Virus record (IMG/VR): IMGVR_UViG_3300035698_029839
Coordinates: 1-64,000 of that record
DNA: 64,000 bases
Source of the DNA: a virus
Reading direction: 5' to 3' (one strand)
Shown here: positions 13,461 to 62,723 of the stretch, in pieces
Numbering within the stretch: the stretch's first letter is position 1
How the letters are laid out: every line of letters starts with the position of its first letter
Position numbers and translations under genes: made by a program
The notes under the pieces: generated by a model
Told to the model about the DNA's origin: nothing
The model's database searches: none
What the model saw: the letters and a program-made list of their open reading frames with translations, nothing else

Positions 13461-14579
13461 ATGAAATTAGTTATTCTTTGTAATTTTGGTCCTTATTCTT
13501 CAGTAGGGGGTTCAGAGGCAGTTATCTCGGCTATTGCAGAAAGGCTAATATGTCCGCCATATAATTATGAAATTGATATATATGCTCATAATTATAAGAA
13601 AGATTCTATACATAAAGGTATAAATTTATTTCCATGTCCTAAGGGTGATAATATAGTCCCCATAATAGCTCAAAACGAGCACATAATGGTTTATAGCGAC
13701 TCTCAATGGAACTTTGACTCATTATTAGGGTCTATTGGTAAAACTGCCCAGAAAGCCTCTATTTGCCTTGTAGGGGCATATCATCTTCAATCTCATCCAC
13801 AATCTCTACAATTACTAAAAGAAAATATAAGTAGATTTAATCTTATCACCCATTCCCAAATAACTTGTGATTATAAGTTCTGTATTGACAATGATTTACC
13901 TGTTAAGGTGGTTCCAAATGGAGTAAATTTGTCCGAATTTGAGAAAAGTGAAATAGATTTTAGACAAAAGTACAATATTAAAGAAAAATATATGATTTTG
14001 AATGTGGGAAATTTTTTTTATGGAAAGGGTTTTGAGCTTATTCCCAAAATAGCTCAAAAATTATCAGAGGATTTAGACGATTTTGTTATTGTTCAATGTT
14101 CTAATACTATCAGATATCCTTACGATAAAATATTTTTTGAAAGAACAAAAAAACAAAGTAAGGGATTAAATGTAAGATTTTTAAGGGATCTTCCTAGAGT
14201 AGATATCGTAGCGGCATTCAAAGAATCTGATATGTTCTTATTCCCTAGTAAAAAGGAGATTGCTCCTATTGTTATTCTTGAATGTAGGGCCGCTAAATTA
14301 CCTTATATCTCAATGAAGGTAGGAAATATGATGGAGAATCCAGGTGGAGTTCCAGTCAATTATCAGAAAGTAGATAATAAGGGGTATGTATTAATTGAAG
14401 ATAGTATTATCAGACATTTTTCAGCGGGTATCTTTAATAGTTTAATACCTATGAAAATAAATGGCAAGAAGAATACAAGGGCATTTAAAAATATCCTTAT
14501 TTCTGATGGACAAGAAGATATAGAGTCTATTGATTGGGATCAGATTGTCCCTTTATATGATGAGGTATTTAAAGGGTGA
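13461..14579 (+). CDS. Family 4-like glycosyltransferase
   Basis: The 372-residue protein has the N-terminal GT-B signature (ILCNFGPYSSVGGSEAVISAI), the linker VVPNGVNLSEF and the C-terminal donor domain start YMILNVGNFFYGKGFELIPKIA. The E-x7-E-like region is KEIAPIVILECRAAKLPYIS near residue 275. It is a retaining GT-B enzyme by family knowledge; donor and acceptor are unknown. It follows a family 2 enzyme, and the next gene starts inside its stop codon (GTGA). Confidence 0.85.
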   Translation: MKLVILCNFGPYSSVGGSEAVISAIAERLICPPYNYEIDIYAHNYKKDSIHKGINLFPCPKGDNIVPIIAQNEHIMVYSDSQWNFDSLLGSIGKTAQKASICLVGAYHLQSHPQSLQLLKENISRFNLITHSQITCDYKFCIDNDLPVKVVPNGVNLSEFEKSEIDFRQKYNIKEKYMILNVGNFFYGKGFELIPKIAQKLSEDLDDFVIVQCSNTIRYPYDKIFFERTKKQSKGLNVRFLRDLPRVDIVAAFKESDMFLFPSKKEIAPIVILECRAAKLPYISMKVGNMMENPGGVPVNYQKVDNKGYVLIEDSIIRHFSAGIFNSLIPMKINGKKNTRAFKNILISDGQEDIESIDWDQIVPLYDEVFKG

Positions 14580-14845
14580 GATATAAAGTAGGAGATAAAG
14601 TTAAAATAAAGACTTGGGGTGAAACGAAAAAACTTGTTAATTTTAATTCTTTTATGGAAAAAGAAGTTGAGGAATTGAAAACTAATAGAATATTAACTAT
14701 TAAAGTAGTAAATGAAGGTTGTTATTATGCTATGAAAGAATCACGGTGGTTTTGGAATGATGATATGATTAAATGTTTAGCAAAAGACTTTAAAAAAGAA
14801 ATATACGAACCTATTAATGATAGATTTGAGATATTAGATTTATGA
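14576..14845 (+). CDS. Small SH3/KOW-like protein with C-terminal ILDL tag (89 aa)
   Basis: GTG start overlapping the previous stop. The N-terminus RYKVGDKVKIKTW is an SH3/KOW-like beta-barrel start, and SRWFWNDDMI is a conserved later strand. It is a paralogue of 33322-33642, which has KYKVGDIVKIKTW and ATWVWTDEMI. Both end PI-x-DRFEILDL, the recurring C-terminal tag of this phage. Function unknown. It lies between glycosyltransferase genes. Confidence 0.75.
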   Translation: MRYKVGDKVKIKTWGETKKLVNFNSFMEKEVEELKTNRILTIKVVNEGCYYAMKESRWFWNDDMIKCLAKDFKKEIYEPINDRFEILDL

Positions 14846-17167: not shown

Positions 17168-17173
17168 ATGTCC

Positions 17174-24626: not shown

Positions 24627-26240
24627 ATGAACGAAATACTTAGCATACAAGAAGAAAGAGAATTAATATATTTATTGCTTCATCATAAGGACGCAATAGA
24701 TCGTTTTCATAATAGTAGTTTGTCATCAAAATTCTTTAGCGAAGAAAATACGCCTGTTGTTTTAGCTATTTTGGAGACACATGATAAGCATGATGTTTTG
24801 CTGACTAGGAAATCTTTTAAAGAACGATTAAAATTTAATACGGTTCCTAAAGAAAGGATTTCTCAAGAATTGGCGTTTAGTTCTTGTTATTCTGCGTCTG
24901 CTAAGATGGCAGATTTGCCAATGTTGATGCAAAAAATTATTGATAATAATGTTCAGAGTTCTATTATTGTTGCTTTAGAAAAATATAGCAAAAATAATAA
25001 GAAAATTGGCAATATCTCTGCGATCAAAGATTTGGTTAATGATTGCGAGGGCATATTAAAAGGATCGAGAGCATCAGAAGGAAAATCTTATTATGATGAT
25101 ATTAGAGAATTATCTAAAACGAGAGTTCAATATATCGAAGATGTTCGTAGTGGTAAGATTAAAGAAGATCCTCTTATTTTAAGTGGCATAAGAGAAATTG
25201 ATCATACTATGGTTACAGGTTTTGCTAAGGGAACTTTAACTTTGATATGTGCTGATGTCGGCGGTTTTAAAAGTTCAATGATGCTTAATATGGGTTTGAA
25301 TGTATGGAGAAGTGGATTTAATGTCCTATTCGTCCCTCTTGAAATGCATAGGGATCAGATGTGGACAAGAGCTTGTGCGAGAGAAGCTAGGATACGTGCT
25401 GAATTGCTTACAAGAAATATTAAAGATATTACTGATGAGCAAATGCAAAAGATAAGACATATGAATGACGAGTGGAATAAAAATCCTGCTTTATTTTATA
25501 TAATGGAAGAACCTGGAAGTACCAGTGTTTTAAATATACAGAGACAGATAGAAAGAAATATAGAACTTATTAAACCTAAACTTGTAGTTATTGATTATGT
25601 TGCTAATTTAGAAGCTCACAAAAATAGATACGGCAGAAATGATCTCGAGATTGGGGACATGTTGAAAACTATGAGGCAAATGGGTAAAAATTTAGATTTT
25701 GCTGTATTATCAGCGGCCCAATTAGGAAGAGAGGCATTAAAAAGAGTTAGAAGTGCAAGTGCTGACAGAGATAAAACTTCTATCAATTCGGAGGATATTA
25801 GAGGGTCTCACGAATATGCAGCCGATGCTGATAATATTTTTGCACAATTGAAACATATACAACAGCCATCAGAGTTGTTAGATATATTTTGTGTTAAATC
25901 TAGAAATGGTCCAACAGTTTTTGAAAATGATAAAGTTAGAGCTACTCTTAATGTCCATCCTGCATATGGTTTGATTTGTAGCCCCATATATGATCAAGAA
26001 GCATCAGGAGATCCAGAGCAAGTTGAAGAAAATGAAAATGTTGTAGCAGATATTACAGATTTGATGGACAAAATGGAAGATGAAGAAGCTATAGGTGCAA
26101 AGGTTTTCGAAGAATCTAATGATATGTATGATGATTATGGTAGTGAGCATGATGAGGGGTATAATGTTGATGATAACAGCGATATAGAAAAAGCTATAGA
26201 TGATAATGAATTAAGCGATAATTGGCAGGACGATTATTAA
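24627..26240 (+). CDS. dnaB: Replicative DNA helicase (DnaB-like)
   Basis: 537 residues. An N-terminal helical domain (EERELIYLLLHHKDAIDRF) is followed by the RecA-like motor: SGIREIDHTMVTGFAKGTL, Walker A CADVGGFKSS, LFVPLEMHRDQMW, Walker B LVVIDYVANLEA, and the switch AVLSAAQLGREALKR. DIRGSHEYAADADNIFAQL is the family motif H4. A long acidic tail ends NWQDDY, similar to the tails of the SSB and other replication proteins nearby. It unwinds DNA at the fork and would work with the loader before it and the split primase after it. Confidence 0.9.
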   Translation: MNEILSIQEERELIYLLLHHKDAIDRFHNSSLSSKFFSEENTPVVLAILETHDKHDVLLTRKSFKERLKFNTVPKERISQELAFSSCYSASAKMADLPMLMQKIIDNNVQSSIIVALEKYSKNNKKIGNISAIKDLVNDCEGILKGSRASEGKSYYDDIRELSKTRVQYIEDVRSGKIKEDPLILSGIREIDHTMVTGFAKGTLTLICADVGGFKSSMMLNMGLNVWRSGFNVLFVPLEMHRDQMWTRACAREARIRAELLTRNIKDITDEQMQKIRHMNDEWNKNPALFYIMEEPGSTSVLNIQRQIERNIELIKPKLVVIDYVANLEAHKNRYGRNDLEIGDMLKTMRQMGKNLDFAVLSAAQLGREALKRVRSASADRDKTSINSEDIRGSHEYAADADNIFAQLKHIQQPSELLDIFCVKSRNGPTVFENDKVRATLNVHPAYGLICSPIYDQEASGDPEQVEENENVVADITDLMDKMEDEEAIGAKVFEESNDMYDDYGSEHDEGYNVDDNSDIEKAIDDNELSDNWQDDY

Positions 26241-26863
26241 TGAATTATTATATTAATAGGATATTGCAAGAAAAGAGTATTACTTCTTATTTGGAAAGTA
26301 GGGGAATATTTCCTCAGAAGAGGACAGGAGATAAAGATATTTATCATTGTCCTATTCATCAAGGTGATAACGATCCATCTTTTGTTGTTTATCCTGTCGG
26401 AACTAAAGGAAGAGATTATCAGACATATTATTGCTTTGGCTGTCATTCTGGAATAACTTTGATTAATTTAAAAAGTGCTTTAGAAAACATATCTATTAAA
26501 GAGGTTGTTAAATATTTTATTAAAGATATAAAGATAGATACTAGAGATGTGGTTCTGTCGATAATAGAAGATGCTAAAAAACAAAAATTGGGAATTGAAG
26601 AGAATAAGGGGATAGAATTTTTATTACTAATGATTAACTCTTCGTGCCGTAGACATATTATGGAGGATTGCGAAGCGAACGAAGAAGAAATAGATTTTTT
26701 TGAGAATTTTTTTAAAAAAATAGATGATATTGCAAGAGCCAGGAATCTTGAATTATTACAACAAGTTTCTTTTATTCTGGACGAAGGGAAAGATAAAAGG
26801 TCTAAGGATTATAAGAAAAAGAAAGAAGAAATGGAAATATCTTCTTTAACTTGGAAAATTTAA
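26240..26863 (+). CDS. dnaG: Primase zinc-binding (CHC2) subunit, half of DnaG
   Basis: The ATG at 26240 overlaps the dnaB stop (TAATG) and follows GGCAGGA. Residues 37-68 form the DnaG zinc finger: CPIH, then QTYYCFGCHSG, with NDPSFVVYP between, followed by helices (INLKSALENISIKEVVKYF). The 207-residue protein has no RNA polymerase or TOPRIM domain. Those are encoded separately at 41420-42127, 14.5 kb away. The zinc domain recognises template trinucleotides in known primases; the two parts presumably assemble in trans. Confidence 0.85.
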   Translation: MNYYINRILQEKSITSYLESRGIFPQKRTGDKDIYHCPIHQGDNDPSFVVYPVGTKGRDYQTYYCFGCHSGITLINLKSALENISIKEVVKYFIKDIKIDTRDVVLSIIEDAKKQKLGIEENKGIEFLLLMINSSCRRHIMEDCEANEEEIDFFENFFKKIDDIARARNLELLQQVSFILDEGKDKRSKDYKKKKEEMEISSLTWKI

Positions 26864-26877
26864 TAGAGAATAAATTT

Positions 26878-27285
26878 ATGATTAATTTTACAGATATAAC
26901 TATTAATGAAGCGGATGGGGTTTTTGCAGATGTAGAGGAAATAATGTTGGCAGAAGTTCCTTCTGTTAAAAATTGGGTTATAAGAAGTTATGTTACAATT
27001 ATTAGTGATAGCGGAGAAGGGACAATGGAGATACAATGTCATGGAGATGGTAATGTTTACATAATAGATTACGACCCGTCAATAGGAGATTTATTTTATA
27101 ATCCTGATATACAAGAGATTTCTATATGGGCTCAGGAAAAAGGGTGGAAAATACCTCAACCTCATCCTGATTTAATTAAATCGAATAAAGAGTTTTGGAA
27201 ATATTTTTATGATACTCTTGTGATAGACTCTGAATATCTCGATAAGTTATATGGGGGTAGACCACAAATAGATGGGAGTAAATAG
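26878..27285 (+). CDS. Hypothetical protein (135 aa)
   Basis: I use the ATG at 26878, which leaves a short gap after the primase gene; a TTG at 26851 would overlap it. The protein looks like a small alpha/beta fold (WVIRSYVTIISDSGEGTMEI, NVYIIDYDPSIGD). No family recognised. GTG of the next gene follows its stop directly. Confidence 0.55.
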   Translation: MINFTDITINEADGVFADVEEIMLAEVPSVKNWVIRSYVTIISDSGEGTMEIQCHGDGNVYIIDYDPSIGDLFYNPDIQEISIWAQEKGWKIPQPHPDLIKSNKEFWKYFYDTLVIDSEYLDKLYGGRPQIDGSK

Positions 27286-27515
27286 TGAATGCAGAAAAAG
27301 CTATAAAAGAAGGATATAAATGTTTTTGTTTACAATGTAACAAGGCTTATAAAAAAACTCCAAGTTATTGGGAGGAAAAAGCCAGTTGCACTGGAGCAGA
27401 GATAGAAATGTGTAGTTGCGGTTCTGATTTGTTTATGTCTTTTGAGCAGTATGTTAAACAACACGAAAAAGAAGATGGGCCTATAGAGAATCGTCTGGAT
27501 ATTTTGGATTTATGA
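27285..27515 (+). CDS. Zinc-ribbon protein with C-terminal ILDL tag (76 aa)
   Basis: GTG start after GGGAG. Cys residues CFCLQC and MCSCGSD form a small zinc ribbon. The protein ends with GPIENRLDILDL, the phage-wide C-terminal tag preceded by an acidic linker (HEKEDG). The next gene overlaps the stop (ATGA). Function unknown. Confidence 0.7.
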   Translation: MNAEKAIKEGYKCFCLQCNKAYKKTPSYWEEKASCTGAEIEMCSCGSDLFMSFEQYVKQHEKEDGPIENRLDILDL

Positions 27516-29373: not shown

Positions 29374-29883
29374 ATGAGTTATGAAAAAAAAATAAATGAT
29401 TATGTAATTAAATTTAAAGATGAACAAAGTTATTTAGAAGCAAAATTAGAAAATTTAAAATTACACCCAGATATACCTTTTCTTGGTTTTATCCAAAATG
29501 AGATGTATAACAGGGAGAAGTGCGAAGTTGAGAGCATAGAAGAAGTTAATGATGGTACTCAATATATTTCTTCTGTTCAAATATTATCGGGAGGTTCTAT
29601 ATCTGAAAACGGGGATTTTGGCGATATTATCGTCGGCAGCGAGAATCTAACCCTTTCTGGTAGTTTAGATTACACCATCAATAATGGGAATAGTCTTTAT
29701 ATAAGTACTGCTGGGGATAATGGTGCTAACTCTAATTATAATTCTTTTATAGGTTGGTCAGCAACTGATTCTCACAATGGTAATAGTAATGTTCTTATTG
29801 GCGGGTACCCTAGTGATCAATCAGAAGAGTTAAAAGAGCCAGAAGATCCAATAGAGAATAGGTTCGATATTTTAGATTTATAA
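29374..29883 (+). CDS. Hypothetical protein with Gly/Ser/Asn-rich beta region and ILDL tag (169 aa)
   Basis: A helical, charged N-terminus is followed by a repetitive Gly/Ser/Asn-rich stretch (SGGSISENGDFGDIIVGSEN, LTLSGSLDYTINNGNSLYIS) that looks like a beta-solenoid or trimeric-fibre piece. The end is EDPIENRFDILDL. Whether it is structural or regulatory is unclear. A 7-base inverted repeat AGACGAT/ATCGTCT lies just upstream (about 29329-29358). Confidence 0.65.
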   Translation: MSYEKKINDYVIKFKDEQSYLEAKLENLKLHPDIPFLGFIQNEMYNREKCEVESIEEVNDGTQYISSVQILSGGSISENGDFGDIIVGSENLTLSGSLDYTINNGNSLYISTAGDNGANSNYNSFIGWSATDSHNGNSNVLIGGYPSDQSEELKEPEDPIENRFDILDL

Positions 29884-30225: not shown

Positions 30226-30585
30226 ATGAGATTCATACGAAAAGAATTTATAGTCACAACTATATTTAACAAAGAATTAACTGAGAAAGATGAAGTTCTA
30301 ATTGTTTTTAATAATCTGCTAAATGAGAGAATAGAATTCTCTATGATTATGAAAAAATACATGCCTCATCAACAAGATTATTTTAGCATAAGTTTTGAGA
30401 GGGTGAGAGTAAAAAAGATATATGAAAATGATACTGTTGATTTATTAGCTTTCAAAAAAGGAGTTAAAACAAGTATGAAAGCTGTGCCCTTTGATGATGT
30501 TATAGAAATAAATGCGACTACTAAAAAACATAAAATTTTAGATATAAATTCGGACATTGATAGATTCGATATTTTAGATTTGTAA
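30226..30585 (+). CDS. Hypothetical protein with ILDL tag (119 aa)
   Basis: 119 residues of mostly beta character (FIVTTIFNKELTEKDEVLIV, FSISFERVRVKKIYENDTV) ending SDIDRFDILDL. First gene behind the promoter at 30191, probably translated from a leaderless message. Function unknown. Confidence 0.7.
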   Translation: MRFIRKEFIVTTIFNKELTEKDEVLIVFNNLLNERIEFSMIMKKYMPHQQDYFSISFERVRVKKIYENDTVDLLAFKKGVKTSMKAVPFDDVIEINATTKKHKILDINSDIDRFDILDL

Positions 30586-31122: not shown

Positions 31123-32532
31123 ATGATTTTTGATAATAAAGATTATGTTCCGCTGCATTGTCATTCCGAATTTAGTCAATTTGATGGTTTGGCAAATATA
31201 AATGATCTAGCAATGCAAGCTAGGAAAATGGGTTTCCCAGCATGTGCTCTCACTGACCATGGTAATATTATGGGTTGGATTAAATGGCTTCAAGCATGTA
31301 GAGCCACAAAAGATAAGAAAGGTAAAGATATTCCTTATGCTCCTATTAAACCTATTCTAGGGTGTGAATTTTATTTATCTCGAAAGATGGATATAGGACA
31401 AAATCAAGAAAAAAGAGATACCGAAGTCATAAAAAAGAATCAACCTGATGGACGCAGGGGAAATAGACATTTAAATCTTTATGCTATGAATTTTGAAGGT
31501 TATAAGAATATATGCAATATGTCTCAAAGGTCTTATACGGAGGGATTTTATTACGATCCTAGAATTGATATCGATATGTTATCAAAGCATTCCAAGGGTG
31601 TTATGTGTGGTTCTGCATGTCTTTCTAGTGTTATTAATGCTAATCTAATGTATGGACGTTACAACCAAGCTAGAGAGACTTGTGGTATTTTAAACGAGAT
31701 CTTTGATGGTAATTTCTTTTTAGAGATGATGTACCATGGGATTAGTGAAGAAAAAGAAATTATTCCTTTAATTTTAAAATTGTCAACAGAATTAAATATT
31801 CCTGTTGTTTGTACCAATGATAGTCATTATATCCATAAGGACCAAGGAGCATCTCAAGAAGTTTTATTATGTATGTCTCAACAAAGATGTTTGAAAGATC
31901 CTAAAAGATTAAAATTCGGTCATATGGAATTTTATTTTAAGAGCGCGGAAGAAATGGCAGTTATGTTTGGACATGTTCCTCATGCTTTAACTAATTCTGT
32001 TGTTCTTGCTGAAAGAATAGATACTAAAGATATAGAGAAAAATCTTTTTGGAGGTATGAGACTACCTAAGTTTGATATACCTAAAAAATATAAAAATCCA
32101 TATGATTATATGTCTATTTTAGCATGGGAAGGAATGGAGAGAATTGGATGGGACAAAAGTAAAGAACATGTAGATACTTTAAAAATGGAATTAGAAGATG
32201 TGAAAGTTGCATATGAAAATAATAATTATGATTTCTCTACATATTTTTTAATAGTTAGAGATTATATATTAGAAGCTAAAAAGATGGGAACTTTTGTTGG
32301 TTGCGGCCGTGGTTCTGGGTATGCTAGTGTATTATTAAGATGTCTTGAAATTACTTATGGGGTAGATCCATTAAAGTACGGTCTTCTATGGGAAAGATTT
32401 TTGGGATTTGACTCCAAAAGGTTTATTAAAGAATCAGATTTCGGATTTGAAGAAGACTTGGTGCAACAAGCAGCAGATAGAGATTTGGAAGGAGATTTAG
32501 AGGAAGATTTAGGAGGCATTGATAGATATTGA
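31123..32532 (+). CDS. dnaE: DNA polymerase III alpha (DnaE), fragment 1: PHP and start of palm
   Basis: 469 residues. The PHP domain is complete (VPLHCHSEFSQFDGLANI, ALTDHGNIMGW, VVCTNDSHYIH). The palm begins normally with FVGCGRGSGYASVLLR and VDPLKYGLLWERFLGFDS, then stops before the catalytic P-D-I-D-x-D-F motif. That motif is in the separate ORF at 33679. The last 35 residues replace the expected sequence with a strongly acidic tail (EEDLVQQAADRDLEGDLEED). No intein motif is visible at this break. Four small genes lie between the two fragments. Confidence 0.9.
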   Translation: MIFDNKDYVPLHCHSEFSQFDGLANINDLAMQARKMGFPACALTDHGNIMGWIKWLQACRATKDKKGKDIPYAPIKPILGCEFYLSRKMDIGQNQEKRDTEVIKKNQPDGRRGNRHLNLYAMNFEGYKNICNMSQRSYTEGFYYDPRIDIDMLSKHSKGVMCGSACLSSVINANLMYGRYNQARETCGILNEIFDGNFFLEMMYHGISEEKEIIPLILKLSTELNIPVVCTNDSHYIHKDQGASQEVLLCMSQQRCLKDPKRLKFGHMEFYFKSAEEMAVMFGHVPHALTNSVVLAERIDTKDIEKNLFGGMRLPKFDIPKKYKNPYDYMSILAWEGMERIGWDKSKEHVDTLKMELEDVKVAYENNNYDFSTYFLIVRDYILEAKKMGTFVGCGRGSGYASVLLRCLEITYGVDPLKYGLLWERFLGFDSKRFIKESDFGFEEDLVQQAADRDLEGDLEEDLGGIDRY

Positions 32533-32756
32533 TAGATACAGATATTAATTGGAATGAACTAACAGAGCAAGAGAGAGAGAAAATACTTCAAAAAATATTA
32601 TCAACAGAAGAAGGTCTAACTGCAATGGCTATGAGTATGGCTCCCTCGCAGAAGGGATATAAGGAAGCACAAGAAATATATATTAAAAAATATGGAAGAA
32701 TAAAAAAAGAAATACTTGTTCCTATAAATGATAGATTTGAAATATTGGATTTATGA
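32529..32756 (+). CDS. Small protein with ILDL tag inside the dnaE break (75 aa)
   Basis: TTG start overlapping the stop of dnaE fragment 1, with AGGAGG upstream. Helical (ELTEQEREKILQKILSTEEG), acidic to basic, ending VPINDRFEILDL. First of four consecutive tagged genes. Function unknown. Confidence 0.65.
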   Translation: MIDTDINWNELTEQEREKILQKILSTEEGLTAMAMSMAPSQKGYKEAQEIYIKKYGRIKKEILVPINDRFEILDL

Positions 32757-32771
32757 AGGAAGAACTTACAA

Positions 32772-33065
32772 ATGGCTTTATCTGATTGGTCTGAAGAAAA
32801 CAAAGAAATAATTAAAAATGCTTTAAAAACGACAGAAGGAAGAGAAGGATTTAAAGAAGCTTTTTATGATACTGTAAATATTTCACTAGAAGATTATTTA
32901 ACGCAAACTTCTGAATCTTTAGGAACAGATGATTTAGAAAAGCATGTGCATAAAATAGTAGAAGATGTATCAGACATATTAGAAATAATTTATGAAAAAG
33001 ATGAAATAAAAGAAACAAAAATAGATAATCCTATAACTACCAGATTGGATATATTAGATTTATGA
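32772..33065 (+). CDS. Small protein with ILDL tag inside the dnaE break (97 aa)
   Basis: Acidic, helical, 97 residues (LSDWSEENKEIIKNALKTTE, LEKHVHKIVEDVSDILEIIY), ending NPITTRLDILDL. GAAGGAAG upstream. Its N-terminal repeat-like helix resembles the previous gene (TTEGREGFKEA against STEEGLTAMA), so they may be distant paralogues. Function unknown. Confidence 0.65.
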   Translation: MALSDWSEENKEIIKNALKTTEGREGFKEAFYDTVNISLEDYLTQTSESLGTDDLEKHVHKIVEDVSDILEIIYEKDEIKETKIDNPITTRLDILDL

Positions 33066-33319
33066 TTAAGGAAGAATTTAAACATGTTAAACTTTTTCCA
33101 ATGCAGGAAAATTTAATTGAAGAGATGGCAAAGGTTCAACCAATTGCAGACGAGTTAGAAGCACTAGGATATATCTATGCTCCGTACATTCCTTTGCAAA
33201 TATCTCTTACTCCTACTCTTAATATTTCTGATTTAATTACTCCCAAAAAATATACTATTAGGAAATATACAGATATTTATTCAGATATTGATAATAGATT
33301 TGAAATATTGGACTTATAA
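33062..33319 (+). CDS. Small protein with ILDL tag inside the dnaE break (85 aa)
   Basis: 85 residues starting in an ATGA overlap with the previous gene. It contains a hydrophobic, Pro-rich middle (GYIYAPYIPLQISLTPTLNI) and ends DIDNRFEILDL. No family recognised. Confidence 0.6.
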   Translation: MIKEEFKHVKLFPMQENLIEEMAKVQPIADELEALGYIYAPYIPLQISLTPTLNISDLITPKKYTIRKYTDIYSDIDNRFEILDL

Positions 33320-33321
33320 TT

Positions 33322-33642
33322 ATGAAATACAAAGTTGGCGACATAGTAAAAATAAAAACATGGGAAGCTATGGGGAGAGAGTTTATTTTTACGACTAGTG
33401 GGAATATATCAATACATAAGACTTCTCAGTATTCAACAGGGATGGAAGATCTTTTAAAAGAGATAGATACTAATAGGGTAGTAACAATATTAAAAGTGAT
33501 AGATAATGTTGTTCCCCCCAGAATACCTCATTACAAGATAGAAGAATTTGATGCTACATGGGTTTGGACAGATGAGATGATAGAGTGTAGTGCAGTGCCA
33601 GCAGTGCCGATACAAGACAGATTTGAGATTTTAGATTTATAG
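33322..33642 (+). CDS. SH3/KOW-like protein with ILDL tag (106 aa)
   Basis: KYKVGDIVKIKTW and ATWVWTDEMIECS make it a paralogue of 14576-14845. Both end PI-x-DRFEILDL. The fold suggests a small beta-barrel that could bind nucleic acid or protein. It is followed by a promoter for dnaE fragment 2. Confidence 0.7.
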   Translation: MKYKVGDIVKIKTWEAMGREFIFTTSGNISIHKTSQYSTGMEDLLKEIDTNRVVTILKVIDNVVPPRIPHYKIEEFDATWVWTDEMIECSAVPAVPIQDRFEILDL

Positions 33643-33643
33643 T

Positions 33644-33672
33644 TTGTAAAGTGAAAGTTATTTTAATATATT
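33644..33672 (+). promoter_or_regulatory. AGTGA-class promoter (TTGTAA-N17-TATATT)
   Basis: TTGTAA 33644-33649, AGTGAAAGT spacer start, TATATT 33667-33672. The ATG of dnaE fragment 2 at 33679 is 7 bases from the -10, with no ribosome binding site between, so a leaderless message is predicted. Confidence 0.68.
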
Positions 33673-33678
33673 TAAGTA

Positions 33679-34722
33679 ATGGCAGAAATCGAAACAAGAA
33701 AAAAAGAGATAATAGAATACGTTACTAAAAAACATTCTAAGAGCGACAAGTTATCTAAAATTATTTCAAAAGTTAAAGAAGAACTTGATGTTTTGGGATC
33801 AACTGATGGCTTAGAAGCAAAGAATAATTTAGAAGTATTTTATAATATATGGAAAAGTCATAAGGGCAAAGTAGGTCATAAGAATGATATAAATAGCTGG
33901 ACTGCTTTCTTTTTAGGCTTAACCAAAGTCAAACCTGATAAGGATTTTCTTCCTACCAGACGCGCTTTTGCAAGAGCTGGATTCCCTGATATTGATACTG
34001 ATTTTGATTATGAGAGCAGGGATAGTGTTTATACTTATATTATTGATAAATATGGTAGGGACAATGTGGGAAATATAGGAACTCATGGTTTGTTAAGATT
34101 TAAATCATGTGTCACTCGAGTTACAAAAGCCTTAGATTTAGCTAATGCTTATCATAAGGGGGACAGTCTTTTTGTTAGTGAGAATGCTGCAAAAGTGACT
34201 GAAATTTTATCACCTTTTCCCAAAAAAGGATTATTAAAAGTTACAGATGAAGATGGAGAAAGTCATCTTATAAAAACTTTTGAAGATGCATATGCGCATT
34301 GCTCTGATTTTAAGCACTATGTAGATAAGTATAAAGATAGTGGTTTTAAAAAATACATGGAACAAATTGAAGGCACTTTTGCTAATTTTGGATGTTTAGC
34401 AAAGGATACTCCTATTCTGACCGATGGAGGATGGAAAAGAATTGACCAGCTTTCTACCAAATTTTCTATAGCTTATATTAATAAGGATGGGGAAATTTCT
34501 TATACTGATAGATATAAAGCATTTAAAACAGGTAGAAAAAAAGTATATAGATTAAAACTTAAGGACGGTAGATTTATAGATGTGACTGATGAGCATCTTA
34601 TTTTTACAGATAAAGGATGTGTTAAATTTGAAGAAATTAGAAAAAATAAAGAAAATTATAAAATTTATGGAATAAAAAAGGATTCTTTGAAGAATGATAG
34701 GATTACTATACCAGCAGTGTGA
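33679..34722 (+). CDS. dnaE: DnaE fragment 2 (palm active site) fused to split-intein N half
   Basis: 347 residues. A basic, helical N-terminal extension (EIETRKKEIIEYVTKKHSK) precedes the palm core with the catalytic PDIDTDF (103-109) and YIIDKYGRDNVGNIGTHG. The DnaE part ends at GTFANFG, residue 238, in the loop before the conserved HAAGVV. From Cys239 the sequence is intein: CLAKDTPILTDGGWKRIDQL, then LKDGRFIDVTDEHLIF (block B, T-x-x-H-like). The remaining polymerase and the intein C half are in the ORF at 35838, so trans-splicing is needed to build the active site. Confidence 0.9.
   Translation: MAEIETRKKEIIEYVTKKHSKSDKLSKIISKVKEELDVLGSTDGLEAKNNLEVFYNIWKSHKGKVGHKNDINSWTAFFLGLTKVKPDKDFLPTRRAFARAGFPDIDTDFDYESRDSVYTYIIDKYGRDNVGNIGTHGLLRFKSCVTRVTKALDLANAYHKGDSLFVSENAAKVTEILSPFPKKGLLKVTDEDGESHLIKTFEDAYAHCSDFKHYVDKYKDSGFKKYMEQIEGTFANFGCLAKDTPILTDGGWKRIDQLSTKFSIAYINKDGEISYTDRYKAFKTGRKKVYRLKLKDGRFIDVTDEHLIFTDKGCVKFEEIRKNKENYKIYGIKKDSLKNDRITIPAV
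34393..34719 (+). other. Split intein, N-terminal half (109 aa)
   Basis: Begins with the nucleophile Cys (FG|CLAKDTPI) and contains blocks A and B (DVTDEHLIF). It stops at TGA 34720-34722 without a C-terminal block. Its partner is at 35838-35978. Confidence 0.9.
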
Positions 34723-34743: not shown

Positions 34744-35604
34744 ATGAATAAATGTAAAATTTGCGGTAAAGAATTTAATAAAAGAATTTCTTTAGAGAGA
34801 CATATAACTAGTTCTTATGGTAAAGAAAAGAAAAAAAAGCATTGTCCTATTTTAGTTTATAAGTGGAAGTATGAGAAAAATAATAGATTTTCTAAAAAAA
34901 GTTTGATTAAGATGTATATAAAAGATAAAAAATCTACGCCTATGATGAAAGAAGAGTTGCAAATTAATAAAAAAACTCTTTTAGATACTATGCATTTTTA
35001 TAAAATTAAAATGAGAAGTATATCGGAAGCTTCTAAAAACCAGATTGAAAGGGATGGCTTGTGGAATAAAGGGCTTACTAAGAGGGACCATCCATCTATT
35101 ATGTCTTATGCTAAGCAAAGAAAAGGGAGAAATAATCCTTATTATACTGCTCCTAATTTTGAAAAAAGAAAGAAAAGAAATTTGGAGATATTAAAAAAAA
35201 CTTGGAAAAGTTTTAATGGAAAAAGGAATCCTAAATCCACAGAAAGAAGAATGGCTAAGATTTTAGACCAAAATAATATATATTATATTAGAAATTTTTC
35301 ATTAAATTATTATGAAAATGGGAAAACCAAATGGAGATTATTTGATTTTTTTATTGAGGGAAAATTATTAGTAGAAATGAATGGTAATTATTTTCATGCT
35401 AATCCTAAAATATATAAAGCAGATGATGAAATAGTTATAGCTAAAAGCAAGAGAAAAGCGAAAGATATATGGGAATATGATGTTAAAAAAATGAAGCTGG
35501 GCAAAGATAGTGGCTATAAAACATTAGTTTTGTGGGAAGCGGATTTTGTAGAGATGACAGATAAAGAAGCAATAAAAGAAATTAGGAGTTTAATAGATGA
35601 TTAG
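34744..35604 (+). CDS. Vsr-like (EDxHD family) homing endonuclease between split-intein halves
   Basis: 286 residues with a perfect AGGAGGT upstream. The N-terminus has a C2H2-like finger (CKICGKEFNKRISLERHI), and the middle has NUMOD-like helices. The C-terminal nuclease matches the Vsr-fold I-Bth0305I family: Glu in PKSTERRMAKIL, Asp in WRLFDFFIEG, VEMNGNYFHANP with the His, and IWEYDVKKMKLGKDSGYKTLVLWE. Known fractured-gene loci carry exactly this type of nuclease between split-intein genes. It would spread the interrupted dnaE to intact alleles. Confidence 0.85.
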   Translation: MNKCKICGKEFNKRISLERHITSSYGKEKKKKHCPILVYKWKYEKNNRFSKKSLIKMYIKDKKSTPMMKEELQINKKTLLDTMHFYKIKMRSISEASKNQIERDGLWNKGLTKRDHPSIMSYAKQRKGRNNPYYTAPNFEKRKKRNLEILKKTWKSFNGKRNPKSTERRMAKILDQNNIYYIRNFSLNYYENGKTKWRLFDFFIEGKLLVEMNGNYFHANPKIYKADDEIVIAKSKRKAKDIWEYDVKKMKLGKDSGYKTLVLWEADFVEMTDKEAIKEIRSLIDD

Positions 35605-35845
35605 CGAAGAAAATGAATTGCCTGAAAAATTTAAAGAAGTAATGCATCGTGCTTTTAAAGATTGTGACGAATTTTATAATGAAATTAGGGATATTCCTAT
35701 TAGTAAAGTAAAAGATTTAACAAATATAATAAAACTTTTTAAATCAAATATCTCAAATGAAAATGAGCAGAGTTATATTATAGACGGAAAAAGGGTTTTC
35801 AACCTGGCCGATATTAAAGAGGTTCAAAAAAAATATAATGAGTAA
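35597..35845 (+). CDS. Small hypothetical protein between intein halves (82 aa)
   Basis: 82 residues, acidic and helical (LPEKFKEVMHRAFKDCDEF), overlapping the endonuclease stop and the next start by 8 bases each. No family recognised. Its tight packing suggests it belongs to the mobile cassette. Confidence 0.55.
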   Translation: MISEENELPEKFKEVMHRAFKDCDEFYNEIRDIPISKVKDLTNIIKLFKSNISNENEQSYIIDGKRVFNLADIKEVQKKYNE

Positions 35846-35978
35846 TTTAAATTTGTTTAATATAGAATCAATTGAAGAATTAGATTTTGAAGATGTTTAT
35901 GATATTTCAATAGATGAAGATTGTGTTTTTTTTCAAAACGAGCATAATTATATAGCAAATAATATAGTTGTTCATAAT
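35838..35978 (+). other. Split intein, C-terminal half (47 aa)
   Basis: Contains block F (EDVYDISIDEDCVFFQNEHNY) and block G ending VVHN with the usual His-Asn, followed by Ser as the +1 extein residue. ATG at 35838 overlaps the previous gene. Confidence 0.9.
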
Positions 35979-37685
35979 TCTCATGCTGCGGGTGTGGTCG
36001 TATCGGATGTCCCTCTTGATCAAATAGCTCCATTAAGAAATGCTAGGAAGGGAATGCTGGCTACTCAATTTCCTAGTGAAGATTTAGAACTTCTCGGTCT
36101 TATCAAATTTGATGTTCTGGCTATAGCCACTTTATCAGTTATTAAAAAAGCAGTAGAAATGATAAAAGAATATTGGGGGATAGAGATAGATGTAGAAAAT
36201 CTTCCTATGAATGATGAATCTACATTTGAAATTTATCGCAAGGGGAATTTGGGAGGAGTTTTTCAATGCGAAAAACATGGTATGCAAAAAACTATGAGAG
36301 ATATAGGGGTAGATCGTTTCGAAGATGTTATAGCTGGACTAGCACTACATCGTCCAGGCCCTATGGATAGTATTCCTGAGTATTGTGCCAGGAAACACAG
36401 GGAAAAAGATGTTGATTATTTTCATCCCTCAATTGAGCCATATGTAAAGCCTTATTTAGAAAGTACTTACGGTGTCCTTTGCTTCCAAGAACAGGTTATG
36501 CAAATTTGTAATAGTCTTGCTGGTTTCACAATTACTGATGGATATATTATGATAAAAGCGATTGGTAAGAAAAAAGAGCACTTGATGAAAAGATTCGAAG
36601 AACAATTTATTTCTGGTTGTGTAGAAAAAAAAGTTCCCCAACATGTTGCTCAGCAGTATTGGACTAAGTTTATTACTCCATTCTCATCTTATGGGTTTAA
36701 TTTGTGTCTTGATGGAAGCATGAGTGTTAAAAATAAAAAAGATGGAGAAATTTATGAAATTGAAGAATTAGAAAAAGAATTTAAAAAAGGAAATAAATTA
36801 GAAATTGTATTGGATAGTTATAAGGGAGGGCTTATTGTGGAAGATATAGTTGTTGATATATTTTGCACAGGTAAAAAAGATATTTATGAAATAGAATTGG
36901 ACAATGGGTCTATTTTAAAATGCACTTTGGATCATAAGTTTATATGTGATGATGGCAACGAGCATACAGTAAAAAAGATTATGGAAGAAGATTTAAATAT
37001 TTTATATTTTCAAGAAAATATGAAAAAGTGCAAAATAAAATCAGTTAAATATCTAGAGAAAAAAAAAGCATTTAATTTAACCATGAAATCAGGACAGCAT
37101 AATTATGCTCTTTATGATATGAATAACAAATGTAGTGTTATAAGTCGTAATTCTCATAGTGCATGCTATGGTTATAACTCTTATACAACAGCATATTTAA
37201 AAGCTAATTATCCTGATGAATTTATATGTTCTTTATTAGATGTGACGATAAGTGGTTCTCAAGGAGAGAGATATGATAAGGTTGCTGCATTTGAGAGAGA
37301 ATTTAAAAAGAAGATGAATATTAAATTTCTTTCCAGAGATATAAATAAATCAAAAGTATTGTTTACTATTGAGAAAAGAAAAGATCTTTCAGAAGGCGTG
37401 AAAAAAACAGAAATACGCCCTAGTCTTTTATGTAAGGGGCTTTTGAAAAAATCAGCTATGAATATAGAAGAAAATCAACCATATGATGATATGAGAGATT
37501 TTGTTAGAAAAACTAATTCGTCATTAATTGATATAAGGGTAGTGGAGGCTTTGACTACAGGTGGATATTTCGGGAAAAAGTATATGGAAGATCCATCTGT
37601 TATTGTGAAAGATTTTGTGATGATTAGAGAAGATATGAAAAAAACTGCTAAAAAAGGAGTAGAAACTGTCGATTTATTTGCATAA
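35838..37685 (+). CDS. dnaE: Split-intein C half fused to DnaE fragment 3, with a second intein
   Basis: 615 residues. Residues 1-47 are the intein C half, ending NYIANNIVVHN before Ser48. The DnaE body resumes at SHAAGVVVSDVPLDQIAPL and includes the third catalytic Asp (LGLIKFDVLAI) and the fingers (GVFQCEKHGMQKTMRDI, LALHRPGPMDSIPEY). A second intein fills residues 290-438 inside the conserved YGFN-SHSACYGY motif. The C-terminus is short compared with host DnaE and ends VETVDLFA, which resembles the canonical QLDLF-type clamp-binding motif. The polymerase is active only after trans- and cis-splicing. Confidence 0.9.
   Translation: MSNLNLFNIESIEELDFEDVYDISIDEDCVFFQNEHNYIANNIVVHNSHAAGVVVSDVPLDQIAPLRNARKGMLATQFPSEDLELLGLIKFDVLAIATLSVIKKAVEMIKEYWGIEIDVENLPMNDESTFEIYRKGNLGGVFQCEKHGMQKTMRDIGVDRFEDVIAGLALHRPGPMDSIPEYCARKHREKDVDYFHPSIEPYVKPYLESTYGVLCFQEQVMQICNSLAGFTITDGYIMIKAIGKKKEHLMKRFEEQFISGCVEKKVPQHVAQQYWTKFITPFSSYGFNLCLDGSMSVKNKKDGEIYEIEELEKEFKKGNKLEIVLDSYKGGLIVEDIVVDIFCTGKKDIYEIELDNGSILKCTLDHKFICDDGNEHTVKKIMEEDLNILYFQENMKKCKIKSVKYLEKKKAFNLTMKSGQHNYALYDMNNKCSVISRNSHSACYGYNSYTTAYLKANYPDEFICSLLDVTISGSQGERYDKVAAFEREFKKKMNIKFLSRDINKSKVLFTIEKRKDLSEGVKKTEIRPSLLCKGLLKKSAMNIEENQPYDDMRDFVRKTNSSLIDIRVVEALTTGGYFGKKYMEDPSVIVKDFVMIREDMKKTAKKGVETVDLFA
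36705..37151 (+). other. Mini-intein in DnaE (149 aa)
   Basis: Cys1 at 36705 (GFNL|CLDGSMSVKNKK), block B around SILKCTLDHKFICDDG, block F AFNLTMKSGQHNYALYD, and the end VISRN before SHSACYG. No endonuclease domain. The penultimate residue is Arg instead of the usual His. It sits three residues downstream of the site used by the cyanobacterial DnaE split intein. Confidence 0.85.
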
Positions 37686-50503: not shown

Positions 50504-50735
50504 AGTTATACATATAATTTCTAATCATCTATCAATAGAATTACAAAAAGAAGATTTAAATTCTAATTTTATTGTGGATTTAGGTGCGGACAGTTTGGAC
50601 TTGATTGGAGTTGTAATGTTGGTAGAAGAAGAATTTAATTTGTCTCCTATTCCTGATAAAGAAGCAGAAAATATTTTAACTACAAAATTATTAATAAATT
50701 ATATTTATACAAAATTGAATAATGAGTCTAGCTAA
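50478..50735 (+). CDS. acpP: Acyl carrier protein
   Basis: 85 residues. Helix I ENKVIHIISNHLSIE, then NSNFIVDLGADSLDLIGVVM with the Ser of the D-S-L motif that receives 4'-phosphopantetheine, then LVEEEFNLSPIPDKEAENIL. This is the canonical ACP fold and length. It has a GTG start. It would need a host phosphopantetheinyl transferase. Why a phage carries ACP is open: lipid or surface modification, or an adaptor role. Confidence 0.88.
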   Translation: MDRQEIENKVIHIISNHLSIELQKEDLNSNFIVDLGADSLDLIGVVMLVEEEFNLSPIPDKEAENILTTKLLINYIYTKLNNESS

Positions 50736-51123
50736 ATATATTCCATTAAGAGATGCCATACTGAAATATGGTGGCAAAGATATGCCAGTTATAGCCATAA
50801 AGAAGTTTTGTGTAGATATAGATAGACTAACATCTTCTTATGAGGTGTGGTTAGATGTTAATGATGCTTCTGGGATAGTAGAGGCATCTGATAATGTTGT
50901 AGTTAATGCTATTAGTTTAGTTCCTACAGATATGGACGAACCTGCATTTTTCGTTATTGATGGAATATCTGTTTCTTGTTCTATAAAACACTATGTTTAT
51001 CATTCTATTAAACATGCTTATTTAGTTAGGGTAGAGTTTCTTTTAAGTAGAGATGATGTTAAACCATATATGATCGAGGAAGATAATAAAGATCAAAATC
51101 GTTTTGATATTTTGGACTTATGA
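50722..51123 (+). CDS. Hypothetical protein with ILDL tag (133 aa)
   Basis: 133 residues, beta-rich (YEVWLDVNDASGIVEASDNV, HAYLVRVEFLLSRDDV), ending DQNRFDILDL. It overlaps the ACP gene and starts a run of four tagged or near-tagged genes. Function unknown. Confidence 0.65.
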   Translation: MSLAKYIPLRDAILKYGGKDMPVIAIKKFCVDIDRLTSSYEVWLDVNDASGIVEASDNVVVNAISLVPTDMDEPAFFVIDGISVSCSIKHYVYHSIKHAYLVRVEFLLSRDDVKPYMIEEDNKDQNRFDILDL

Positions 51124-51452
51124 GCGATAAAGTTAAACAAATTACTATTGATGACTCAGTAACAGATAAGGAGTCTATCTATAAAATATTAGCACAATGT
51201 GCACATGATGAAGGAATCTCAATTTTTAAAGTAGCAGATAGTTCTATCGATAATATCCAAAAAATGGATAAAGACTGTCGAAGATATCGACAAAGAATTA
51301 GCGAACTCGCTGGAAAAGAAAGCAAATATAGAAAAGAAGTATTAGAACTAGAGAGAAAAAAGATAAAACTTGAGAAAGGACTTAAAGAGTTAGAAAAAGA
51401 AATAAATTTTCGAGTTATGAATGATAGTCGTTCTAATTGGTTGGATTTATAA
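51120..51452 (+). CDS. Coiled-coil protein with divergent tag (110 aa)
   Basis: 110 residues; the second half is a coiled coil (YRQRISELAGKESKYRKEVL). It ends DSRSNWLDL, which keeps the final L-D-L of the tag but has N-W where others have R-F-x-I. ATGA overlap with the previous gene. Function unknown. Confidence 0.65.
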   Translation: MSDKVKQITIDDSVTDKESIYKILAQCAHDEGISIFKVADSSIDNIQKMDKDCRRYRQRISELAGKESKYRKEVLELERKKIKLEKGLKELEKEINFRVMNDSRSNWLDL

Positions 51453-51922
51453 TGGACTTATTACAAGTAATAATACCACAACCTCCAGATTTTCGTATCT
51501 TGTTGGAAGATAATGAAGAAATAAGAATTATAAGATATGAACAAATAAATATGAATTTTTGTGATAGGGTAGTATACAAAGATGGTAAAAAGAAAACAGT
51601 TCAATCTCCACTTATTACTTATTTAGTCGAATTAGATAATCAATCAAAAGAGCAATTAAAGAAATTATTTTCAGATTCTTTTGAATCTAATGATAGCACG
51701 ATACAAACAAGATCTGCTAGAATCAAAGTGGGTAGAGATGGATATGTATATAATGTAGAAGTATCAGCTAGACCAGATATGAATGATTTTGTTTATTCTT
51801 CCAAAATATTTCAAGAAAGAGTTAAAATATGTTTAAGGCTAGAAGAGACGAGTATATCTTTATTTGATAGAGCGAATGAGGCTTATGAAAAATATGAACG
51901 TTTTGAGATTTTGGATTTATAA
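51452..51922 (+). CDS. Hypothetical protein with ILDL tag (156 aa)
   Basis: I start at ATG 51452, which overlaps the previous stop (TAATG). Beta-strand-rich (FRILLEDNEEIRIIRYEQIN, ARIKVGRDGYVYNVEVSARP) and ends EKYERFEILDL. No family recognised. Confidence 0.65.
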   Translation: MDLLQVIIPQPPDFRILLEDNEEIRIIRYEQINMNFCDRVVYKDGKKKTVQSPLITYLVELDNQSKEQLKKLFSDSFESNDSTIQTRSARIKVGRDGYVYNVEVSARPDMNDFVYSSKIFQERVKICLRLEETSISLFDRANEAYEKYERFEILDL

Positions 51923-52374
51923 TGGCTGTGATTGGTCCTATGATGTTTGGTGGTAAGTTTTCTATTTATAGCAATGGCGCTGAGGTTCTAAAAAATTTAG
52001 AAATAGTGGGATGGCGGGTTGAAGATAGAATTTCATCATACGATCATCCTCTATATACTTTTACAGCATCGTGCGGTCATGATAGCGTTCATTATTTTAA
52101 CGTATTGGTTAGGGAAGGGGTTGTTCGTTCTGATGGGGTTTCAATAATAAATTATGAAGGATTAGAGTATCCAGTGTATATAGATTCTTATGAGATGATT
52201 CAACACAATGCTGAGGTTACAAGCATGTCTGGTCATCATGGTTATATTCCAGGTAGTATGGAAGTTATTATTTGTGGCCATATTGATAGTAGAGATATAG
52301 GTGAGGTCGATACTATTATAGAAAAGAAAAAAGAAGTAGCGATAAAAGATCGCTTTGAGATTTTAGATTTATAA
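51922..52374 (+). CDS. Hypothetical protein with ILDL tag (150 aa)
   Basis: 150 residues with an alpha/beta core (KFSIYSNGAEVLKNLEIVGW, HPLYTFTASCGHDSVHYFNV) and a linker ending VAIKDRFEILDL. TAATG overlap with the previous gene. Function unknown. Confidence 0.65.
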   Translation: MAVIGPMMFGGKFSIYSNGAEVLKNLEIVGWRVEDRISSYDHPLYTFTASCGHDSVHYFNVLVREGVVRSDGVSIINYEGLEYPVYIDSYEMIQHNAEVTSMSGHHGYIPGSMEVIICGHIDSRDIGEVDTIIEKKKEVAIKDRFEILDL

Positions 52375-62149: not shown

Positions 62150-62178
62150 TTAAAGGGGGGCAGATATTTAAAATATGA
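62149..62178 (+). repeat. 30-base direct repeat, copy 2
   Basis: Matches 61371-61400 at 27 of 30 positions. It now provides the G-rich ribosome binding site and ATG of the gene at 62175. Confidence 0.85.
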
Positions 62179-62723
62179 GTAAAAAAGGGCCAGTAATAAA
62201 AAATACTAATAAGAGTCACAATCGTCATGGGAGTAATTGTAACGATAATAGTAGAGTTATAGTTGGCAAATCCCCTGGTGATCATATTCCTTATAGTTGG
62301 TCTGTTCAAAAGTCTGTAGAGCATTATATAACTAAATATGAGTTGAAATGTTCTCTTTTACAGTTTCCTAGTAGAGCACCGTGGCAGAAGCTTCTTTCTG
62401 ATAACAAAGTATCTAATGAGTTTTTAGATGTTTTTGCTAATAGGGTAATTTGGAGTGCGGTTTGTAGGTATCAAAAATTATCTGAAAAGATTATGGACAA
62501 ACATGCTAATCTATTAGATTGGCCAATAGTTTCTTCTTGCCAGAAAATGTCTAAAAGATTTATTTTTAGGCATAAAAAAGAATTAGATATGGATATTGTT
62601 AGTAATAGATTTTTGATTACTCAAGAGGATTTAGACCAGTGTGAGAAAGAAGAAAAAGAAAGAGTCGCATTTATGGAAGGCGGCGAGGAGATAGAAGATC
62701 GTTTTGATATTTTGGATATGTAG
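62175..62723 (+). CDS. Hypothetical protein with ILDM-type tag (182 aa)
   Basis: 182 residues with a helical body (NEFLDVFANRVIWSAVCRYQ, LSEKIMDKHANLLDWPIVSS) that looks like degenerate leucine- or ankyrin-like repeats of phage proteins. Ends EIEDRFDILDM, the tag with a final Met. Its start is within a 30-base repeat shared with the upstream hydrolase gene. Function unknown. Confidence 0.65.
   Translation: MSKKGPVIKNTNKSHNRHGSNCNDNSRVIVGKSPGDHIPYSWSVQKSVEHYITKYELKCSLLQFPSRAPWQKLLSDNKVSNEFLDVFANRVIWSAVCRYQKLSEKIMDKHANLLDWPIVSSCQKMSKRFIFRHKKELDMDIVSNRFLITQEDLDQCEKEEKERVAFMEGGEEIEDRFDILDM

Follow-up and report, generated by a model that had tools for sequence, protein, structure and literature searches.

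Short linear motifs that bring many unrelated proteins to a single hub, and phage DNA polymerase III (Pol III) alpha subunits encoded in pieces, are both already known (PMC6881253 and PMC7824862, respectively). Here we describe a virus locus in which both features occur side by side, namely a dnaE gene in three pieces whose first gap is occupied by four small genes that all end in the same short C-terminal peptide (henceforth the tag). The locus lies within a window of 64,000 bases (bases 1-64000 of the 297,710-base virus record IMGVR_UViG_3300035698_029839, labelled G000), which we compared with related virus records labelled G001 to G013 (of which G003, G004 and G005, at 103, 92 and 164 kb, may be fragments, and G006 measures 33 kb) and with two more distant records with a split dnaE, L100 and L109. 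We found the tag to be a real, protein-level peptide, and we hold with moderate confidence that the first break in dnaE arose by duplication followed by fission and that the tag is a docking motif for a phage hub.

For the peptide, the closest described counterpart comes from phage T4, whose polymerase gp43, late-promoter factor gp55 and co-activator gp33 carry short, hydrophobic and acidic clamp-binding C-ends that can be swapped (PMC2988020). Like these, the tag is short, hydrophobic and acidic, lies at the C-end or close to it and is portable among unrelated proteins; in gp55 the motif follows a divergent linker (PMC2988020). The core Phi-D-[FI]-L is common to the tag and the gp43 and gp55 ends. 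Unlike in T4, for which three proteins are named, about 30-45 proteins per record are tagged here; moreover, the tag has a strong R and a final D-L, and belongs to a phage whose clamp is of the bacterial beta type. The PIP-box and APIM motifs of PCNA likewise connect one hub with many unrelated clients, and APIM starts with [K/R]-[F/Y/W] (PMC6881253), but this hub is eukaryotic and archaeal, its motifs are otherwise unlike the tag and they are not limited to the C-end. As for the polymerase (relevant literature on split phage dnaE: PMC3919608, PMC7824862), jumbo phages of group 2.2 produce a minimal C-family Pol III alpha as separate proteins that are thought to reassemble; these comprise the catalytic core only, are encoded by distant genes and occur beside a family B polymerase (PMC7824862). 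By contrast, G000 has a DnaE with a PHP domain on fragment 1, adjacent genes and overlapping fragments, which sets it apart from group 2.2 (no PHP domain, distant genes). Cyanobacterial-type split-intein DnaE resembles the second break in G000, where fragments 2 and 3 each carry an intein-like half and an endonuclease-like open reading frame (ORF) lies between them. It does not resemble the first break, on either side of which (fragment 1 and the beginning of fragment 2) Pfam matched no intein and which hence does not look like a trans-spliced split intein. Among the open-access papers listed, judged by titles and the beginnings of abstracts, none appears to describe such a tag, which proves nothing about print at large.

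Together, the three dnaE fragments in the window (Table 1) match PF02811, PF07733 and PF17657, i.e., the PHP domain, the palm (PDxDxDF) and the fingers of a C-family DNA polymerase. Specifically, fragment 1 matches PF02811 (E-value 1.1e-40) and PF07733 (positions 3-98), and fragment 3 matches PF17657 (E-value 5.7e-50), PF07733 and PF14579, with PF14890 below the cut-off. As a preliminary description of the window had claimed, fragments 1 and 2 are separated by four ORFs (32529-33642) that all end in R[FL][DE]ILDL and a stop codon, and no further plus-strand ORF of at least 40 amino acids lies between them. Its statement that the first of the four begins inside the fragment 1 stop codon agrees with the predicted TTG start, which shares two bases with the TGA stop and has an AGGAGG 12 nt ahead of it, within fragment 1 codons. 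With the tag included, gap ORF 3 finds its homologues in the dnaE gaps of G002 and G001 with E-values of 3.4e-8 and 0.008, respectively, and with the tag removed it still shares one body family with L010_13128 and L009_13216. A capsid link for this ORF was rejected, the L010 homologue matching Gp23 only with an E-value of 0.066; a search of seven records for Gp23 found none, but its controls were also silent, so that it carries little weight.

Evidence that the tag is real comes from its frequency, its position and the proteins that bear it. As a DNA pattern, [DE]ILDL followed by a stop codon occurs 28 times on the forward strand of the 298-kb G000 record, never on the reverse strand and never in the control, and strict R.[DE]ILDL ends were found in 11 of 383 mechanically called ORFs in the window (at least 30 amino acids, both strands) and in 0 in each of 20 Markov-shuffled copies. 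When R was required and a final L, I or M allowed, there were 27 matches in G000, 33 in G001, 43 in G002 (of 44 listed, after removal of one that ended in TGG) and 2 in G006, with none in G004 and G005, nor in G003 once its sole match, which ended in TGG, had been dropped. Among viral contigs other than G000 itself the strict DNA pattern was found only in G001, G002 and G006, and none of its 11 matches in bacterial genomes formed the end of an ORF of at least 30 amino acids. We then catalogued 108 tagged ORFs (26 in G000, 31 in G001, 49 in G002 and 2 in G006), some having been missed since overlapping ORFs were thinned. Their consensus is P-I-x-[NSD]-R-F-[ED]-I-L-D-L, where the R was demanded by the search and position 6, left open to D or E, was D in 108 of 108. 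With the tag removed, their bodies form 59 families at a phmmer E-value of 1e-3, including 40 singletons (some families may still be distantly related). Matches were found to 33 Pfam families, each of the 25 listed occurring in one member only; among the bodies are a DUF551 protein, a DUF4116 protein with eight repeats and a distant relative of single-strand-binding proteins, and five of the 108 look membrane-bound by a crude hydropathy test. The same short peptide on unrelated bodies is what characterises a short linear docking motif.

The same can be said of the way in which the tag is encoded, as it is conserved at the protein level while synonymous sites vary freely (its R is written with six codons). 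Tags of different families used the same codon at 0.59 of shared residues when they lay in one cluster, at 0.55 when they lay elsewhere in the same record and at 0.54 when they came from different records, and codon usage alone predicts a synonymous identity of about 0.53 (average of per-residue values); tag codons thus agree at about the level of codon usage, which argues against recent copying of the tag as DNA. A slight within-cluster excess nevertheless persists in G000, where 38 of 1000 permutations reach it. The tag is followed by TGA in 47 cases, TAA in 45 and TAG in 16. In 14 of the 108 ORFs, 13 of them in G002, one to nine residues follow the motif, and a free C-end may therefore be dispensable. 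Three further observations concern variants of the peptide: 13 paralogues at 136-153 kb of G002 (L047, L063) carry a variant motif, mostly R[SA]E[IL]LDL with a short extension; G008 has a dialect, RFE[LIV]M[DE][LIM], with five copies and two close variants (found with a loose pattern that gave 12 matches on the forward strand and 2 in the control), three of these having been observed as ORF ends; and an AAA+ ATPase-like ORF at 20782-22440 (phrog_8638, phrog_10401) has a C-end, DLDL, which it shares with G001 and G002 and which recalls the end of the tag.

Tagged genes in G000 lie at 14.8, 27.5-33.6, 51-52, 62, 162-167, 186 and 287-295 kb, with five successive tag matches at 292.2-293.3 kb. Of the 84 plus-strand ORFs in the window 14 are tagged, in runs of 1, 1, 2, 1, 4, 4 and 1. 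Random labels produced a run of four in 3.9% of cases and two runs of four in 0.01% (probability 0.0001), meaning that tagged genes cluster; the second run counts as four only if the variant end RSNWLDL is accepted.

The first break is not peculiar to G000. We found the same break in 10 records including G000, and a matching layout in L100 and L109. Across the gaps of the 10 records we counted 23 plus-strand ORFs of at least 40 amino acids, 15 of them tagged, 2 borderline and 6 untagged. Besides the four in G000, tags were found on seven of eight gap ORFs in G001 (one with a six-residue extension, the eighth ORF having an out-of-frame tag behind its stop), on both in G008, and on two in G002, whose gap also contains a zinc-finger ORF (PF06467), which we take to have the look of a homing endonuclease, and an ORF ending in the same tail as fragment 1. 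The single gap ORFs of G003 and G013 have borderline ends (KWTILDI and RFKLMVF). G004 and G010, both with few or no tags in the record, have one ClpP-like gene each (L013 9283-9930 and L078 4310-4930), G005 has one untagged ORF of 112 amino acids, and in G011 the gap is 3 nt long and contains no ORF. Among the distant records, L100 has two untagged ORFs and L109 none on the plus strand. Considering only the tag-rich records (G000, G001, G002 and G008), 15 of 18 gap ORFs are tagged, which makes the gap a favoured site for tagged genes there, if one of several. The interpretation given in the preliminary description is partly supported. That description had named relatives with the same break and unrelated, untagged genes as what would refute it; G004, G005 and G010 are such relatives, so the position of the gap by itself is no evidence that the tag recruits proteins to the replisome.

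How the break arose can be read from the fragments themselves. When compared with the intact phage DnaE in MT836517, fragment 1 (residues 7-427) covers residues 3-388 and fragment 2 begins to align at residue 318, so that the two overlap; across records the overlap measures about 33-70 residues, and Pfam and solved-structure alignments concur. The duplicated segment belongs to the palm, just ahead of the catalytic PDIDTDF, and forms the end of fragment 1 and, in degenerate form, the start of fragment 2. A hidden Markov model (HMM) of this segment, built from 30 intact phage polymerases, matched all 12 fragment 1 sequences tested strongly (within positions 3-112) and 11 of 12 fragment 2 sequences up to positions 119-120, ten of these matches starting at 71-77 (72-120 in G000) and that of G005 at 30; for the L100 fragment 2 the match was confined to the catalytic end. 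Two matches, at residues 316-420 and 447-551, were obtained within a single ORF of 1102 residues in G009. The catalytic motif, of which there is only one copy, contributes part of the fragment 2 score. Once the catalytic end had been taken off, the only single-sequence scores above the best of 650 (13 x 50) shuffles (4.5 bits) were those of G005 (10.3 bits), G009 (8.8) and L109 (6.3), and a profile-profile comparison of 11 fragment 2 N-ends with the intact segment gave a probability of 92.8 (E-value 3.9e-7 for one comparison, 14% identity) as against 0.1 for a control with reversed columns. The relatives suggest that the gap is older than its tagged genes and was probably not made by them, and duplication, fission and then filling would be the simplest order of events.

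The tag, too, appears to have a history that precedes its spread. Two genes just upstream of dnaE, encoding an HExxH protein and a protein of 119 amino acids, each have orthologues in nine records with motif-like C-ends: TRYDFIEIEDEEE and TRWDLIDVGEDMDA in G003, RFDLIDFGD and SKFDFLDIE in G010, TRYDFLDLSSNDE in G007 and TRWDFLDIREE in G008. The fit varies, being poorer for the HExxH proteins of G009 (EFDFMVL), G007 (FSMIDFGEF) and G012 (FGMMDFGF) and for the 119-aa protein of G004 (GEFIDFT). In G007, G009 and G012 dnaE is one ORF up to the catalytic motif. Since both conserved upstream genes bear forms of the motif, even where dnaE is unbroken, the motif is, judging by these orthologues, older than its spread. 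The HExxH protein may be a metallopeptidase, the HExxH motif being the sole basis for this reading.

A possible hub is encoded elsewhere in G000. The record contains a bacterial-type beta clamp (record positions 140361-141674; PF00712 above the cut-off with an E-value of 1.4e-6, phrog_947 with 8.9e-9) and a DnaX clamp loader (138166-139281), near which lies a possible delta subunit (PF06144, E-value 0.03, below the cut-off). Six-frame searches with the clamp families PF02767, PF02916 and PF09116 were negative, but these negatives are worthless, a clamp having later turned up next to DnaX. In the interval between these two genes we also observed a sigma-factor-like ORF (record positions 139346-140077, L159 4847-5578; phrog_1740, E-value 4.8e-4). 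The T4 ends in NC_000866 read SLDFLFG (gp43) and SLDFLYEAND (gp55); the old motif forms TRYDFLDLSSNDE and SKFDFLDIE resemble them at about four positions, with only Phi-D-[FIY]-L as shared core.

In the account that we favour, the palm segment would first have been duplicated internally, fission would then have occurred between the two copies (an order that we infer from the states found across records), and the gap would have become a landing site that filled with small genes later. Fragment 1 (PHP domain and first palm copy) and fragment 2 would assemble as separate subunits, the former helped by its DDLGGVDRY tail. The tag, in turn, would serve as a short linear motif by which accessory proteins dock on a single phage hub, and its spread to new genes would have filled the dnaE gap and half a dozen other clusters. 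Jointly, the results on the break and on the tag explain the four-gene gap, and no causal link between the two is needed. The most likely single hub would be the diverged beta clamp that the phage encodes or some other part of the replisome, a leading candidate that we nonetheless regard as doubtful. Possible rather than probable, in our view, is a more inclusive claim: that huge phages of this kind use an address tag, i.e., one seven-residue peptide, old on two proteins of the replication region and added to about 30-45 mostly unrelated accessory proteins per genome, which would be read by a single lineage-matched receptor (possibly the sliding clamp) and would have lineage dialects, next to a polymerase split in its palm by duplication and fission.

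Other explanations have been proposed or can be conceived for both the break and the tag. According to the preliminary description, the break may have been created when a cassette of tagged genes was inserted into an unbroken dnaE, which would fit a G000 gap that contains tagged genes only. The relatives contradict this, unless each of them lost its gap genes: the gap of G011 is nearly empty, those of G004, G005 and G010 hold untagged genes, and G009 retains both palm copies in one ORF. The insertion reading is also unsupported because insertion alone creates no overlapping duplicated segment; we therefore reject the tagged cassette as the maker of the break and find such an origin barely credible. 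A DNA element with a role in recombination or regulation, located at gene ends and translated incidentally, would account for the clustering of tags, for the frequent overlap of tandem genes at TTATGA and for the slight synonymous excess within G000 clusters, but the pattern matches lie on the forward strand in 27 of 27 cases in G000 and 33 of 33 in G001. Only one copy was out of frame, namely that following a shortened paralogue in G001. Given the free synonymous change, the identity at the level of codon usage and the use of all three stop codons, we reject the tag as a DNA element, which is very improbable. Improbable as well, if less so, is a degradation signal that marks early proteins for timed proteolysis. 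Its C-terminal position and hydrophobic final residue would suit such a role, as would the ClpP-like gene in the dnaE gap of G004 and G010, but ClpP was found in only 2 of 12 records and in none of the tag-rich ones (a six-frame search can miss it, and a host ClpP could serve). Degrons of the ssrA type require an exact free C-end, and the extended motifs may speak against this, though they could be decayed copies; the conserved pattern also reaches well past the hydrophobic end.

The two remaining explanations both treat the tag as an address. It could be the phage's version of the T4-type clamp-binding C-end, by which dozens of accessory proteins ride on its own clamp. The beta clamp and DnaX loader, the Phi-D-F-L core that the gp43 and gp55 ends share with the 119-aa protein motif of several relatives, the hydrophobic, acidic and interchangeable nature of the T4 motifs (PMC2988020), the similar [K/R]-[F/Y/W] beginning of the PCNA-binding APIM motif (PMC6881253) and a tagged distant relative of gp32-like single-strand-binding proteins in G001 (best PHROG E-value 0.0016) all argue for it; a likeness over four residues can, however, be due to chance, and we consider clamp docking a tentative idea that is rather unlikely. 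A sorting tag for another destination (e.g., virion packaging, a phage compartment, the membrane or a phage RNA polymerase) seems slightly less likely still. One peptide on unrelated, small, clustered and lineage-specific accessory proteins does look like a cargo signal, and the sigma-like ORF between DnaX and the clamp also speaks for it, but such a tag has no receptor candidate, its oldest carriers are located in the replication region, and membrane proteins make poor virion cargo. Recruitment to the replisome by the tag is conceivable on independent hints, namely the oldest carriers just upstream of dnaE (also where dnaE is intact), the phage's own clamp and loader, and the resemblance to the T4 ends. 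Several points weigh against the docking and duplication reading that we favour. The consensus of bacterial beta-clamp-binding peptides, QL(S/D)LF, for which more variation may be accepted (PMC9690074), does not match the tag consensus; the DnaE proteins of these phages end in ETVDLFA, ESVDLFG and similar sequences rather than in the tag; and tagged membrane-like ORFs would be odd clients of a clamp. Because 11 of the 14 extended tags belong to one G002 paralogue family, tolerance of an extension is thinly supported elsewhere, and a frameshift appears to have removed the tag, probably recently, from one G001 copy or more (in the gap ORF 4 paralogue at L009 13482-13782 it stands just past the stop in another frame), so that not every copy needs it. 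As regards the break, without the catalytic end the HMM test of the second copy is weak, the G000 copy scoring 3.8 bits and hence below the best shuffle; the order of events is read from the states of records; and AlphaFold models of fragment 1 and of the G002 fragment 2 (mean predicted local distance difference test scores of 49 and 50) were too poor and were left unused.

Fragment 1 has a C-terminal peptide of its own, of the form [D/E]D[LMP]GG[VI]DRY, found in 7 of the 10 split records and missing from G003, G008 and G010, as well as from L100 and L109. Its synonymous codons differ across the five records whose DNA was compared, which points to conservation at the protein level; we suggest that it may be another docking peptide, one that perhaps binds fragment 2. 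When seven records were scanned for the pattern (at most 2 mismatches), it turned up nowhere but on fragment 1 and a single G002 gap ORF (L010 12566-12898), which has the same ELEDDLGGVDRY peptide at its C-end as dnaE fragment 1, with many synonymous sites differing. Directly before fragment 2 lies a promoter-like element (Table 1) of the AAAGTGA type, which may give fragment 2 a transcript of its own. By eye, such an element around AAAGTGA is common to the intergenic stretches at 17168, 20722, 30187, 33643, 37686, 39458 and 46762; with at most 2 mismatches, the 12-base word AAAGTGAAAGTT occurs 32 times in the window versus 21.7 expected, only mildly above chance, and a promoter and terminator scan was not above chance. 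At the second break, the intein-like matches on both flanks are below the Pfam cut-off. The stretch from fragment 2 to fragment 3 also contains, besides the endonuclease-like ORF, an ORF of 82 amino acids, and fragment 3 has a second, in-frame intein-like insertion. A similar second break occurs in G008, there without intervening ORFs, and in G013.

Table 1 Features of the window that bear on the split dnaE and the tag (positions in the window)
Feature	Position	Strand	Description
Tagged ORF	14576..14845	+	paralogue of gap ORF 4, ends DRFEILDL
Tagged ORF	27285..27515	+	ends NRLDILDL
HExxH protein, 263 aa	28529..29320	+	old motif carrier, ends DRFDYLDL
Tagged ORF	29374..29883	+	ends NRFDILDL
119-aa protein	30226..30585	+	second old carrier, ends DRFDILDL
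dnaE fragment 1, 469 aa	31123..32532	+	PHP domain and first palm part, acidic C-terminal peptide EEDLGGIDRY
Fragment 1 tail codons, [DE]D[LMP]GG[VI]DRY	32505..32529	+	also hold an AGGAGG; synonymous differences between records
Gap ORF 1, 75 aa	32529..32756	+	ends NDRFEILDL
Gap ORF 2, 97 aa	32772..33065	+	ends TTRLDILDL
Gap ORF 3, 85 aa	33062..33319	+	ends DNRFEILDL; homologues in G001 and G002 dnaE gaps
Gap ORF 4, 106 aa	33322..33642	+	ends QDRFEILDL; YKVGD.VKIKTW paralogue family (12 tagged members)
Intergenic promoter-like element, TTGTAAAGTGAAAGTT..TATATT	33643..33678	+	ahead of fragment 2; resemblance only; close counterpart before G001 fragment 2
dnaE fragment 2	33679..34722	+	degenerate second palm-segment copy, catalytic PDIDTDF palm, intein N-half
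ORF within second break, presumably homing-endonuclease-like	34744..35604	+	no family match above cut-off
dnaE fragment 3	35838..37685	+	intein C-half, remaining palm, fingers, second intein-like insertion, C-end ETVDLFA
Second tagged run of four	50722..52374	+	50722-51123, 51120-51452 (variant RSNWLDL), 51437-51922, 51922-52374
Tagged ORF	62175..62723	+	ends DRFDILDM

Elsewhere in the window, the primase also looks split, 26222-26863 matching positions 18-122 of phrog_47 and 41420-42127 positions 144-335. An ORF of 629 amino acids (44264-46153) resembles, by eye, a cysteine-rich protein with an intein inside it; its G001 homologue (L012 18432-19202) has 256 amino acids. A phage translation initiation factor (phrog_9787), presumably IF3-like, is encoded at 20212-20721.

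Most small accessory genes of giant phages are without known function. If it is true that one peptide marks dozens of proteins as clients of one hub, the hunt for a single receptor would place about 59 protein families into one pathway. The split polymerase, for its part, offers a rare series of states (an unbroken gene, a single frame with the duplication, a split gene with nothing in the gap and split genes with filled gaps) that bears on how a replicative enzyme becomes two genes.

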